64,000 nt of DNA, taken from assembly GCA_016790285.1 (NCBI GenBank), contig JAEUPJ010000041.1, positions 62,001-126,000 on the forward strand, in the 5' to 3' direction. Position 1 is the first letter of the stretch. Each line of letters starts with the position of its first letter. Source of the stretch: Roseateles sp. (lineage in GTDB: Bacteria > Pseudomonadota > Gammaproteobacteria > Burkholderiales > Burkholderiaceae_C). A program made the position numbers and the translations under genes. The notes under the pieces are model-generated. The model saw only the letters and a program-made list of their open reading frames with translations, did not search any database and had not been told where the DNA came from. Shown piece by piece: positions 58,155-62,284 of the stretch.

Positions 58155-60170
58155 TCAAGCCGCCAGCGCCACGCGCGCCGGCACCTCGGCATGGTGGCTC
58201 AGCTGCATCGTGAACTGCGCGCGCCCGGAGCTGAGCGCCCGCAGCTGGCCGATGTAGCCGAACATCTGCGCCAGCGGCACGTGTGCCGTCACGACGACGG
58301 CCGTGCCGCGCGCATCCTGGCCCTGCACGTGGCCGCGACGGCGCAGCAGGTCACCGATGACGTCGCCCAGCGCCTCGGCCGGCGTGACGACTTCCACCGC
58401 CATCACCGGCTCCAGCACCACGGGTGCCGCGTTCAGCACCGCTTCGCGCAGCGCGTGGGCCGCCGCCAGCTCGAAGGCCAGCGCCGACGAGTCACGCACG
58501 TGGGCGCTGCCGTCCACCAGCGTGGCCTCGAAGTCCACGAGCGGGTAGCCCGCGAACGGGCCCGCCTGTGCGGCGCGGCGGATGCCCGCCTCCACCGCCG
58601 GGATGAACTCGCGCGGGATGGCGCCACCCACCACGGTGGTCGAGAACCTGAACCCTTCGCCGCGGCCCAGCGGCGCGATGCGCAGCGTCAACTCGGCGAA
58701 CTGGCCGGGGCCGCCGCTTTGCTTGCGGTGCACGTGACGCACCTCGGCCGCGGCCGAGATCGTCTCGCGGTAGGCCACCTGCGGGCGGCCCACGGCCACG
58801 TCCACGCCGAAGCGCGAACGCAGCTTCTCCACGGCGACTTCCAGCTGCAGCTCGCCCATGCCGGACAGCAGTGTCTGGCCCGAGTCCGGGTCCTGGCGCA
58901 GCCGCAGCGACGGGTCTTCGCGCACGAGCACCGACAGGCCCTTGGACAGCGCCGCCGCGCCGGACTGCTGGCGCGGCTCGATGGCCACGTCGATGACGGC
59001 CTCGGGCACGGCGATGCTTTCCAGCACCGGCGCGTTGCGCGTGGCCGCCAGCGTGTGGCCGGTGAGCACGTCCTTCAGGCCCACGACGCCCGCGATGTCG
59101 CCCGCCACCAGCGCGTCGCGCTCGACACGCCGGTCCGCGTGGATCTCATACAGGCGTGCCACGCGCTCGGCCTGGCCGGTGCTGGCATTGAAGACGGTGT
59201 CGCCGCGCCGCAGGCTGCCGCTGTAGACGCGCACGAACACCATCGCGCCGTGGTCGTCGGCGGTCAGCTTGAAGGCCAGCGCCGACAGCGCGCCGTCCAG
59301 CGGCGCTGCGCCGGGCGCTTCGCCCGGGGCAGGCAGGTAGGCGACGACGGCGTCCAGCAGCGGCTCCACCCCGCGGTTGCGGAAGGCCGAGCCCGCAAGC
59401 ACGGGCACCATGGCGCCGGCCAGCGTGGCCGCACGCACGCCGGCGCGCAGGGCGTCCACCGACGGGCTCTCGCCGCGCAGCCAGGCGTCCAGCAGCGCGT
59501 CGTCGCGCTCCACCACGGCTTCCACCAGGCGTGCGCGCGCGGCGTGGGCGGCGTCGAGCAGCTCAGGCGGGATGGCGGTCACGCGCGGCGGCGCGCTGGC
59601 ATCGTCGTGGTCCCACACGAGGGCGTGCATGGCGAGCAGGTCCACCACGCCGCGGAAGTCGCCTTCCGCGCCGATGGGCAGCTGCACCGGCACCGCGTTC
59701 GTGCCCAGGCGCTCGCGCATCATGGCCACGACACGGCCGAAGTCGGCGCCCAGGCGGTCGAGCTTGTTCACGAAGGCGATGCGCGGCACGCGGTAGTCGT
59801 CCGCCAGGCGCCAGTTGGTCTCGGTCTGCGGCTCCACGCCGGCCACGCCGTCGAACACGACGACGGCACCGTCGAGCACGCGCAGCGAGCGCTTGACCTC
59901 GATGTTGAAGTCGATGTGCCCGGGCGTGTCGATCAGGTTGATCTGCGTGCCGTGCCAGTGCACGGTGGTGGCCGCGCTGTGGATGGTGATGCCGCGCGCG
60001 CGCTCCTGGGGGTCGAAGTCCATCGTCGTGGCGCCGTCGTGGACTTCGCCGATGCGGTGGTTCTCGCCCGTGTAGAACAGGATGCGTTCGGTGGTGGTGG
60101 TCTTGCCGGCGTCGACGTGGGCAATGACGCCGATGTTGCGCAGGTTGCGCCAGGTGGTGTTGGAGTTCAT
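58155..60170 (-). CDS. fusA2: Elongation factor G paralogue (EF-G2)
   Basis: A 671-residue translational GTPase. G1 [17 protein letters not shown], switch [12 protein letters not shown]3 [11 protein letters not shown] and G4 [11 protein letters not shown] are intact, followed by domains II-V ([20 protein letters not shown] in domain III; YRETI and [16 protein letters not shown] in [18 protein letters not shown] in V). It is shorter than the usual EF-G (about 700) and stands alone, not in the str operon with rpsL, rpsG and tuf, so it is a second copy. The start at 60170 has AGGA 6 nt upstream, but that site lies within a hairpin. A longer in-frame start at 60251 is rejected. Expression seems controlled by its leader. 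Confidence 0.92.
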
Positions 60171-60171
60171 G

Positions 60172-60215
60172 GTGATTCCTGATTCGGGGTTGGCAGGCCA
60201 GCCCCGTGGAATCAC
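60172..60215 (-). promoter_or_regulatory. Hairpin that sequesters the fusA2 ribosome-binding site, with two pairing registers
   Basis: On the minus strand GTGATTCC (60208-60215) can pair perfectly with GGAATCAC (60172-60179), which contains the fusA2 Shine-Dalgarno. A direct repeat places a second GAATCA at 60180-60185, so the same upstream arm can pair there instead and leave the site free. Between them GGGG and CCCC close an inner stem. The upstream arm begins 4 nt after the stop codon of the 35-residue ORF, where a terminating ribosome would open it. Confidence 0.6.
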
Positions 60216-60219
60216 AGGG

Positions 60220-60327
60220 CTAGCGCGAAGGCAGGACGCCGAAGCGCGCACGCGACAGGCAGGGCCGAGCCGCGCTCCGGCGCTCGGGAATCGTGGCGAT
60301 CAGCTTGTCGAAGGTGCGGGTGCGCAT
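60220..60327 (-). CDS. Leader ORF 2 upstream of fusA2 (35 residues)
   Basis: A short ORF beginning [17 protein letters not shown] and ending FGVLPSR, rich in arginine (8 of 35). It starts after the terminator hairpin and stops 49 bp before the fusA2 start, at the base of the hairpin that covers the fusA2 ribosome site. No similarity is recognised. Its position fits a leader peptide or an upstream coupling ORF; it has no strong Shine-Dalgarno. Confidence 0.5.
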
Positions 60328-60340
60328 GGTGGAACTCAGG

Positions 60341-60378
60341 AAAAACAAAACCCCGGGAGGGACGAGCCTGCCGGGGTT
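60341..60378 (-). terminator. Intrinsic terminator/attenuator in the fusA2 leader
   Basis: On the minus strand AACCCCGG (60371-60378) and CCGGGGTT (60349-60356), extended inward by AGG/CCU, form a stable stem. It is followed by GTTTTGTTTTT (60341-60350). It lies before leader ORF 2 and fusA2 and after leader ORF 1, so it would stop transcription before fusA2 unless prevented. Confidence 0.7.
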
Positions 60379-60385
60379 GGGGGAC

Positions 60386-60425
60386 CGGAAGGCAGCGGCG
60401 CCTTCCGAACACAGTCGAAGGGCGC
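60386..60425 (-). promoter_or_regulatory. Mutually exclusive hairpins between leader ORF 1 and the attenuator
   Basis: Segment 60398-60407 can pair either with 60386-60393 (CGGAAGGC/GCCTTCCG, perfect 8 bp) or with 60416-60425 (CGAAGGGCGC with GCGCCTTCCG, one bulge). The second pairing abuts the stop codon of leader ORF 1 (60426-60428). Such competition is typical of attenuators that sense ribosome position. Confidence 0.45.
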
Positions 60426-60467
60426 TCAGCGGTTGAGGCGGGCTTGGACGGTGTGGGTGGTCTTCAT
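60426..60467 (-). CDS. Leader ORF 1 upstream of fusA2 (13 residues)
   Basis: ATG-initiated MKTTHTVQARLNR followed by a stop, placed directly before the competing hairpins and the attenuator. A GATAAT box at 60478-60483 would place the transcription start only a few bases before this ATG, so the peptide might be translated leaderless; there is no Shine-Dalgarno. The stretch 60484-60733 shows no further gene. Confidence 0.45.
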   Translation of the reverse strand: MKTTHTVQARLNR

Positions 60468-60733
60468 GATGGGCGAGATTATCGGCCGGCAGGTGAGGCC
60501 CTGGAGGGTGTGGGGTGATGTGCGGGTGGGGCCGGGATCGCAAGGGGGCTCACGGGCACATGGCGTGGCGAGGAACCTTGGGCCGCATCGCAGCGGTGCG
60601 GGCGTCAGGACAAGCACCCGGAAGCGGCAGGCCGTCGAGCTGTTGTCGCGCACAGCCGCAGCGATGGGCCTAGAGCTGCCGACTACGCGCTACCCCGCTG
60701 CTCGGTCAACTTGGTCGCCGACCAGATCTCCCC

Positions 60734-62284
60734 TCACGCCCCCTGCGGCACCGCCGCCAGCTGGCTGACGCTGGCCTGCCGGTACGGCGCGCACAGCTGC
60801 TCCACATAAGCCTGGTGCCCCGGCAGCCCCGCAACGATGCGGGACACGCGGCTGTGGATGTCGCCGAGGAACTGCGTCAGCTCGGGCGTGCCCATCAGGT
60901 CGGCCACGGGGTGGTAGCGCGCGGGCGTGATGCCCTGGCCCATCATGACTTGCACCCACGAGTTCTCGGCGAAGAGCTCGTCGCTCGGGCGGAACACGCG
61001 GCCCGTCTCGCGGAAGAGGTCGATGCGGTGGCGCAGCGAGGGCAGGAGGTCCATCTCGCGCACGTGCTTCCACAGCGCTGAGTCGGTGCGCTCGTTGACG
61101 TGGTAGTGCAGCACGATGAAGTCGCGGATGTGCTCCAGCTCGCGCTTGGACTGCGCGTTGAACTCGTCCACGTCGGCCTGCTGGATGCCGCCGGACGGGA
61201 AGGTCTGCATCAGGCGGATGGCCGAGCGCTGGATGAGATGGATGCTGGTGGACTCCAGTGGCTCGACGAAGCCGCTGGCCAGCCCCACGGCGATGCAGTT
61301 GCGGTGCCAGACCTTCTCGCGCTGGCCCGGCAGGAACTTGATGAGGCGAGGCTGCGTGAGCAGCTCGCCCTCGACGTTGGCGCGCAGCACGTCGGGTGCG
61401 TCGGCGTCGGCGAGCTCCTTGCTGCTGTAGACCAGGCCGTTGCCCACGCGGTGTTGCAGCGGGATGCGCCACTGCCAGCCGAAGCGGTGGGCGATGGAGC
61501 GGGTGTAGGGCCAGGCCTCGCGCACGGAGGCGGTCTGCACGGCCACGGCGCGGTCGCAGGGCAGCCAGTACGACCAGTCTTCGTAGGCGACGCCCAAGGC
61601 TTCGCCCAGCAGCATCGAGCGAAAGCCGGTGCAGTCGATGAAGAGATCGCCGTCGATGCGGCTGCCGTCCTGCATCTGCAGCGCGGCGATGTCGCCGTCG
61701 CGCGCGGCACCGGCCTCGGGGCCGTGCTTGAGCACCTGGGCGATCTTGCCTTCGATGCGCTGCACCCCGTGCGCCTCGCTCATGGCGCGCAGGAACTTGG
61801 CGTAGCGGCTGGCGTCCAGGTGGTAGGCGTAGTTCAGCGCGCTGCGCGGCACGTGGGCGAAGCGGTTGGCGAAGGCCGCCACCGTCTCGGGGTTGTAGTC
61901 GGTGTAGGTGCGCGCCAGGCCCTCGCGCTGGCCCTTGAGCCAGAAGTGCTGGAAGCCCGCGCTCCAGTGGTCGTTGCCGGTGGTGCCGAAGGAGTGGAAG
62001 TAGTCCTGGCCGATGTCCTTCCAGCCCTCGAAGTTGATGCCGAGCTTGAAGGTGGCGTTGGTGGCCGCCATGAACTCGGCTTCGTTGATGCCCAGCAGGT
62101 TGTGGAAGGTGTGCAGCGCGGGGATGGTGGCTTCGCCCACGCCCACGGTGCCGATCTCCTCGGACTCGACGAGCTTGATGTCGAGCTGCTTGCCGAGCAG
62201 CTTGCTCATGAGGGCCGCCATCATCCAGCCGGCGGTGCCGCCGCCCGCGATGACGACGCGGTTGAAGGGCTTGGAGGTGTTCAT
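60734..62284 (-). CDS. Flavin-dependent tryptophan-halogenase-like protein, copy 2
   Basis: A 516-residue protein of the same family as the one at 29147: VVIAGGGTAGWMMAALMSK, the family lysine in ATFKLGINFEGW, WQWRIPLQHR, and the catalytic Glu in GFVEPLESTSIHL. It starts at 62284, overlapping the stop of the cupin-like gene as ATGA. The SapC, cupin-like and halogenase order is a common companion set of TonB-dependent carbohydrate receptors. The natural substrate is unknown; the catalytic Lys and Glu suggest a working halogenase. Confidence 0.9.
   Translation of the reverse strand: MNTSKPFNRVVIAGGGTAGWMMAALMSKLLGKQLDIKLVESEEIGTVGVGEATIPALHTFHNLLGINEAEFMAATNATFKLGINFEGWKDIGQDYFHSFGTTGNDHWSAGFQHFWLKGQREGLARTYTDYNPETVAAFANRFAHVPRSALNYAYHLDASRYAKFLRAMSEAHGVQRIEGKIAQVLKHGPEAGAARDGDIAALQMQDGSRIDGDLFIDCTGFRSMLLGEALGVAYEDWSYWLPCDRAVAVQTASVREAWPYTRSIAHRFGWQWRIPLQHRVGNGLVYSSKELADADAPDVLRANVEGELLTQPRLIKFLPGQREKVWHRNCIAVGLASGFVEPLESTSIHLIQRSAIRLMQTFPSGGIQQADVDEFNAQSKRELEHIRDFIVLHYHVNERTDSALWKHVREMDLLPSLRHRIDLFRETGRVFRPSDELFAENSWVQVMMGQGITPARYHPVADLMGTPELTQFLGDIHSRVSRIVAGLPGHQAYVEQLCAPYRQASVSQLAAVPQGA

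Follow-up and report, generated by a model that had tools for sequence, protein, structure and literature searches.

The purpose and control of the second elongation factor G (EF-G) that several bacteria possess are poorly understood, and the question raised by the present locus is how the leader in front of such a gene, fusA2, might control its expression. The window, by which is meant the whole stretch of 64,000 nucleotides that was analysed, carries the gene as follows:

58155-60170, minus strand: fusA2, second elongation factor G, 671 aa (P0001), recognised by its match to TIGR00484

The product matches the TIGR00484 EF-G model over its full length (residues 2-668) with 838 bits against a curated cut-off of 659, and the start codon is the ATG at 60170-60168 on the minus strand, with an AGGA Shine-Dalgarno (SD) sequence upstream. 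The reading favoured here, to which a probability of about 0.62 is given, is that fusA2 is governed by tandem ribosome-mediated attenuators, with expression low when the leader ORFs are translated to their stops and released when elongation fails.

Within the genus set fusA2 is found in 16 of the 20 genomes and the leader in exactly those 16. A canonical fusA copy (1188-1200 bits) is present in 13 of these 20 genomes, with a partial copy in 1 more, and in the window's own assembly (G000) neither canonical fusA nor rpsG was found. Loss of the main EF-G from this organism was considered and rejected, as rpsG is missing too, and the str operon probably lies in an assembly gap. A tblastn search with fusA2 against plasmids gave 31 records, every one below 60% identity, and one relative (L032, from G057) has a fusA2 match with one in-frame TGA, which is either a pseudogene or a sequencing error. 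According to a study of 2017, Stenotrophomonas maltophilia reportedly raises fusA2 upon loss of fusA1. The two EF-Gs of Pseudomonas aeruginosa are described in the available part of one source with no such leader (PMC3832671), and in the available part of another the name fusA2 denotes the argyrin target of C. difficile, with no bearing on a leader-controlled fusA2 (PMC13392398).

A preliminary description of this DNA had placed a 35-codon leader ORF, here ORF2, ahead of fusA2, and comparison supports the conservation of ORF2 there. The features of this ORF are:

60220-60327, minus strand: leader ORF2, 35 aa, with the stop codon TAG at 60222-60220
60304-60309, minus strand: Asp-Lys codons GAC AAG of ORF2, a candidate arrest site
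60289-60301, minus strand: P0, a mini-hairpin GATCG-CCA-CGATT within ORF2, predicted by RNAalifold from 76 leaders
60238-60281, minus strand: P1, a hairpin within ORF2 with arms 60281-60271 and 60248-60238, predicted by RNAalifold from 76 leaders

The degenerate pattern MRT[YF]DKLIATI has 64 matches among 84,980 species. In 60 of them the stop is followed, after about 48-130 nt, by the start of an EF-G gene with 61-89% identity to fusA2, in a 61st (L062) fusA2 (64%) follows directly in the genome, beyond the stored stretch, and the remaining 3 (L052, L091, L097) end at contig starts. A mobile leader common to many genes was therefore rejected, since all 61 decidable matches precede fusA2 and none lies in viral contigs, where the pattern had no exact match. 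Approached from the gene, ORF2 is present in 16 of 16 orthologs (at least 60% identity) from 150 family genomes, with the motif diverged in L031 and L033, and the indels of ORF2 within the genus are multiples of three. The comparisons that follow draw on 76 distinct leaders, from which L020, L025, L031 and L073 were omitted as the start-codon motif failed; the leader of L020 is the same as that of L089. Two congeners, L007 and L016, have the very leaders of the Roseateles records L110 and L084 respectively, which places the window's organism close to Roseateles.

Every one of the 16 family leaders fetched via fusA2 has Asp-Lys, as [FY]DK; its presence in the 76-leader set is partly by construction, 49 having come from a pattern that demands it. 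Codon choice is a different matter, with the Asp codon being GAC in 76 of 76 leaders when GAT was free to occur, and the final Ile codon of FDKLIATI (60291-60289 in the window) being ATT in 76 of 76 though ATC was allowed, whilst the Ile preceding it is ATC in 63 of the 76. The ATT of this last Ile closes P0 by a G-U pair rather than a G-C pair. For P0 and P1 together 94.8% of cells are paired, with changes on both sides, compared with 23.0-50.1% in slid controls, a figure that is favourable because the structure comes from the same alignment (76 leaders, ORF2 sequences limited to 110 nt). ORF2 is thus constrained at the level of RNA as well as that of peptide. Only 21 of the 76 leaders have an SD-like motif ahead of ORF2, thus translation of ORF2 is not assured.

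Immediately past the stop of ORF2 lies the first of two arms:

60208-60215, minus strand: anti-RBS arm (A), GTGATTCC, 4 nt past the ORF2 stop
60172-60179, minus strand: ribosome-binding site (RBS) arm, GGAATCAC, containing the fusA2 SD and pairing with GTGATTCC

That the first of these arms pairs with the SD-bearing second had been claimed from the window alone, and the sequence bears it out, with 0 of 200 dinucleotide shuffles of the inter-ORF region of the window leader (L001) pairing equally well with its RBS. The RBS-masking analyses cover the RBS-type leaders (n=62). When the segment past the ORF2 stop is paired with the 13 nt immediately ahead of the fusA2 start codon, no more than 10 of 200 shuffles match the native pairing in 57 of 62 leaders, and the other five (L011, L055, L065, L072, L094) are not clearly above shuffles; in this test L022 was sorted as terminator type and L094 as RBS type, and the permutation and energy comparisons use a revised list of 62 leaders. 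The A arm starts 2-14 nt past the ORF2 stop in 60 of 62, the exceptions being L056 and L094.

It is apparent that the two arms vary together, as in GTGATTCC/GGAATCAC, GGCGATTCC/GGAATCGCC, GGTGGTTCC/GGAACCACC, GGCGAATC/GATTCGCC, GGCGGATC/GATCCGCC and GGCAATG/CATTGTC. Across 36 distinct RBS types the mean energy of the A:RBS helix is -13.25 kcal/mol for native pairs and -8.91 for swapped ones, and the native mean is reached by 0 of 10,000 permutations, or by 2 of 10,000 within the genus (8 RBS types), with relatedness ignored in both. Only 5 of the 36 types have the native RBS as the single strongest partner of the A arm, many of the types being alike. When RNAalifold was given the 46 leaders outside the 16-leader genus set, and no structure, the A:RBS helix was its sole prediction, with 7 pairs of which 5 are changed on both sides; 88.7% of the cells are paired against 33.8-50.0% in slid controls, and 27 cells are double-changed against 6.9 in shuffles. 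The compensatory changes for which the preliminary description had looked to related leaders are therefore found, by RNAalifold on 46 leaders, by permutation and by shuffling alike. As judged by comparison of sequences the RBS-masking helix is conserved with compensatory changes, the fusA2 RBS being paired, in computation and comparison, with an arm that adjoins a leader ORF, which supports the original view of an RBS-sequestering arm directly past the stop of a conserved leader ORF and ahead of a second EF-G. In L025 and L073 the A:RBS pairing is visible by eye. Inspection of L031 by eye gives a different picture, with a third small ORF, of which the stop overlaps the start of fusA2, seemingly lying between ORF2 and fusA2, and a masking arm that looks able to pair ahead of this third ORF instead.

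The masking helix has competitors, and these are:

60197-60224, minus strand: A:B hairpin (RBS-free, ON form), which holds the ORF2 stop, from folding and the 46-leader comparison
60185-60206, minus strand: B:C hairpin (RBS-masked, OFF form), nested within the A:RBS helix, from the 46-leader comparison

The RNA of the window alone favours the hairpin GCTAGCCCTGTG-ATTC-CACGGGGCTGGC at 60224-60197, in which the anti-SD arm is consumed and the SD is free. Over the 46 leaders 67.4% of the A:B cells are paired compared with 31.1-50.2% when slid, and 73.3% of the B:C cells compared with 26.2-44.1%. The conserved alternative is thus, on this comparison, A:B, competing with B:C plus A:RBS, and computation gives a mutually exclusive pairing that frees the RBS. 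Whilst the pairing and positions of the preliminary description stand, on sequence and covariation, its second register does not. This was to be formed by a GAATCA copy (60185-60180), which occurs in 6 of 16 genus leaders, with the matching TGATTC arm in 3 of 16, and the conserved competitor of masking is not this copy but the B arm just downstream.

The energies of the two forms are close. For the window one setting gives -25.8 for the RBS-free and -24.0 for the masked form, a difference of 1.8 kcal/mol, and a second setting makes them equal. Over 62 leaders masked minus RBS-free has a median of -2.9 kcal/mol (range -15.1 to 6.1), the gap is no more than 5 kcal/mol in 40 of the 62, and in several relatives the masked form is the lowest. 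As the lowest form differs between settings and between relatives, the resting state cannot be read from the energies. Within the RBS-free fold at least half of A is sequestered in 44 of 62 leaders, and in the window masking of 9-12 nt past the ORF2 stop keeps the RBS out of the A:RBS helix.

Not all leaders end in this way. Twelve leaders, among them those of Cupriavidus basilensis, Rhodoferax, Amantichitinum and Parachitinimonas, have an intrinsic terminator between ORF2 and fusA2. With the stop region free, the 5' arm of this terminator pairs with upstream sequence in 9 of the 12, but in only 1 of 12 with a ribosome masking that region. Masking past the ORF2 stop brings about a switch in 8 of the 12 compared with 2.1 expected from shuffles, the leaders that do not switch being L048, L054, L058 and L087. 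The Chitiniphilus leaders L061 and L094 have no T-run by the terminator rule.

These terminators bear upon where the ribosome would have to be for fusA2 to be expressed. EF-G acts in ribosome recycling, and it could be supposed that a ribosome lingering on the ORF2 stop, through slow termination or recycling, keeps the RBS open, so that fusA2 would sense a failure of termination or recycling. The position of the arm in 60 of the 62 leaders lies inside the footprint of a stopped ribosome, and freeing of the window RBS on masking agrees with this, as does the part of EF-G in recycling; yet the same ribosome position is predicted to favour termination in 8 of the 12 terminator-type leaders, and B:C, which matters mainly after the ribosome has departed, would be needless and is nevertheless conserved. 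This alternative is rated unlikely. The suggestion in the preliminary description that a ribosome on the ORF2 stop would cover the arm is kept, whilst such a ribosome is doubtful as the inducing event, given that a terminator stands at that place in 12 leaders.

Leaders of another kind may exist further afield. The best four fusA2-like genes in other families of the class (L112-L115) have 54-57% identity, and L112 and L114 (also L142 and L141), from two other families, have a different leader peptide in common, GRG..xAKGYxCLGVFRxAA, which L113 and L115 do not have. Of 369 class genomes 2 have the pattern KGYxCLGVFR, each time ahead of the distant fusA2-like genes L112 and L114, and a scan of 40 genomes from a single order gave it in no genome beyond the one identified before. 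L112 has a terminator-like stretch ahead of its fusA2-like gene as well. As L112 and L114 have this separate peptide in common, leader control of fusA2-like genes may be wider than the [FY]DKLIATI leaders.

To return to attenuation of fusA2 by tandem leaders, the second half of that proposal lies upstream of ORF2, in a region where the preliminary description had nothing of ORF1 or its terminator, as it also lacked the hairpins within ORF2:

60478-60483, minus strand: GATAAT, the -10 hexamer of a promoter predicted for the fusA2 leader, 10 nt ahead of the ORF1 start codon, assigned by its -10-like position
60426-60467, minus strand: leader ORF1, MKTTHTVQARLNR, 13 aa, assigned by frame conservation
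60341-60425, minus strand: transcription attenuator 1, beginning with segments A1 60425-60415, B1 60408-60398 and C1 60395-60385
60376-60341, minus strand: rest of attenuator 1, the terminator-like hairpin and T-run, with D1 60376-60367, E1 60360-60351 and T-run 60350-60341

A frame like ORF1, M[KN]... of 10-25 aa at a matching distance, is found in 44 of the 76 leaders compared with 0-1 in eight shuffled sets, examples of the peptides being MKILTNVIKASFAT and MKLNHTIQARLNT. Of these 44 leaders 41 have a -10-like hexamer 8-10 nt ahead of the start codon of ORF1, compared with 0-3 of 44 in ten shuffled sets, TTGNNN at -35 spacing occurs in only 23 of the 44, and an SD-like motif before ORF1 was found in none of them. 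The adjacent hexamer and the missing SD-like motif suggest that ORF1 is probably leaderless or nearly so. An ORF that begins at the 5' end of its RNA is on record for trpL of Sinorhizobium meliloti (PMC7298713).

Past ORF1 five segments yield either A1:B1 with C1:D1, or B1:C1 with the terminator. A terminator-like hairpin with a T-run stands before ORF2 in 65 of the 76 leaders, where eight shuffled sets give 11-20 of 76. When 12 nt past the ORF1 stop are masked, D1 becomes free in 25 of the 44 leaders where shuffles give 8.7, and without masking D1 is paired in 33, no commoner than the 31.9 of shuffles, thus the signal of attenuator 1 lies in the masked state. A leader ORF, the switching pairs of a competing antiterminator and an intrinsic terminator, the parts of transcription attenuation, are therefore each found above their shuffled controls.

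From these parts the order of folding and the sign of control may be proposed. The promoter would start the mRNA at ORF1 or close to it. A ribosome at the ORF1 stop would cover A1, B1:C1 would form and the terminator before ORF2 would follow, and with no ribosome there A1:B1 would form, then C1:D1 as antiterminator, and transcription would continue. A ribosome at the ORF2 stop would cover A and allow B:C, and after its release A would pair with the fusA2 RBS (OFF), whilst in some genera completion of ORF2 would lead to a second terminator instead of RBS masking. If the ribosome were held upstream in ORF2, for which the Asp-Lys of [FY]DKLIATI is the best candidate site, or were absent, A:B would form first and the RBS would be free (ON). 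Both outputs would then follow a common rule, completion of the leader ORF meaning OFF and a ribosome held upstream or absent meaning ON. The spare EF-G would be on when ribosomes fail to finish short ORFs, for example when EF-G is short or inhibited, and such shortage or inhibition is the simplest guess for the inducing signal, as the product under the leader is itself EF-G.

An arrest at Asp-Lys could also be the work of a drug. In ErmBL, a leader peptide that arrests the ribosome, a Lys follows the Asp of the arrest codon. The arrest is believed to take place at this tenth codon, Asp (PMC9178857). If fusA2 were likewise induced by drug-specific arrest at the Asp-Lys of [FY]DKLIATI, as with erm, EF-G shortage would not be the signal, and the [FY]DK of all 16 family leaders reached through fusA2 fits this, as does the shared Asp. 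However, the product is EF-G and not a known resistance enzyme of the erm class, Asp-Lys is in 0 of 44 ORF1 peptides when ORF1 has its own attenuator, and the conservation of ORF2 is partly at the RNA level, so that drug-specific arrest is likewise rated unlikely. Translational coupling of neighbouring ORFs is common, and the helix might merely fix a low, constant translation of fusA2 or couple it loosely to ORF2, without regulation, which would suit both the frequent lack of an SD-like motif before ORF2 and the arm of L031 that, by eye, seemingly acts on a third small ORF overlapping the fusA2 start. This is improbable, as three mutually exclusive helices are each above their slid controls and some genera bear a terminator at the same place. 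Amino-acid attenuation, with the leaders sensing charged tRNA, resembles the layout of two leader ORFs with attenuators in Salmonella mgtCBR, of which one ORF senses proline in the available part of the source (PMC3641672), and was rejected as very improbable, the target being neither a biosynthetic nor an uptake gene and the ORF1 and ORF2 peptides showing by eye no repeated codons of any single amino acid.

If tandem attenuation of fusA2 by its leaders is accepted, a further step can be taken, although it is tentative and rated at somewhat short of an even chance. The leader may be a dedicated sensor of translocation capacity, in which two serial ORFs, of which the first is near-leaderless, would gauge whether a short ORF is completed within the time set by RNA polymerase, spare EF-G being released upon shortage or inhibition of the main EF-G. 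In the course of evolution RBS masking and transcription termination would have replaced one another as the read-out whilst the leader peptide was kept. If the leader works as proposed the signal would have a name, unfinished short ORFs, the leader could serve as a reporter, and EF-G inhibitors would be predicted to increase the spare EF-G. The leader would then also offer a natural instance of a peptide whose job stays the same while the device that it drives shifts from RBS masking to a terminator.

By analogy the fusA2 leader would work like the attenuators of erm, trp and vmlR, in what appears to be a new arrangement and on a translation factor. In the erm leaders (ermC, ermB) a short leader ORF precedes hairpins of alternative form, in which the next RBS is either masked or free, and the position of the ribosome selects the fold. 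The fusA2 leader is similar in having a leader ORF and then alternative RBS-masking and RBS-freeing hairpins that would be chosen by ribosome position; it differs in that it serves a second EF-G, its masking arm is found past the leader stop, completion of the leader would set the OFF state, and a further leader ORF with its terminator lies upstream. Rfam 15 offers no family for it, the window from 59900 to 60900 matching only Xoo8 at 18.4 bits where the gathering threshold is 90; Xoo8, which in the available part of its source sits between lpxC and ftsZ (PMC3039613), was rejected as its identity. Ten relatives gave two matches, both under gathering, of which the one at a leader is to His_leader (32.4 bits, cut-off 49, at L023:3738-3858, minus strand), on the ORF1 attenuator stretch, and is either chance or a likeness of layout. 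No description of a fusA2 leader is among the literature matches listed, a search that covered few subscription papers.

For the remaining systems the comparison is with the available parts of the sources. A predicted terminator upstream of an EF-G gene is a feature that the rpsL-leader and streptococcal fusA attenuator have too, although these lie in the str operon, are treated together with protein S7 and have in that part no comparable leader ORF (PMC2965389). The PA5471.1-armZ system of P. aeruginosa is similar in having a leader peptide and a proposed transcription attenuation, with read-through going up upon impairment of the ribosome, and fusA1 mutations correlate with raised mexXY (PMC12057347), but it controls the anti-repressor of an efflux pump, an unrelated gene. 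Salmonella mgtCBR has, like the fusA2 leader, two ORFs and two attenuators; it responds to ATP and to proline, in either case through transcription (PMC3641672), whereas the second fusA2 attenuator would act on the RBS in most leaders and through a terminator in others. Bacillus subtilis vmlR combines an anti-antiterminator, antiterminator and terminator with SD masking and arrest on a small ORF, and is also induced by defects of ribosome assembly (PMC9226507). The fusA2 leader would likewise combine transcription attenuation with SD masking by a ribosome on a small ORF, but where vmlR has a single three-codon ORF and an ABC-F resistance factor, the fusA2 leader has two longer ORFs, with a switch for each, ahead of an elongation factor.
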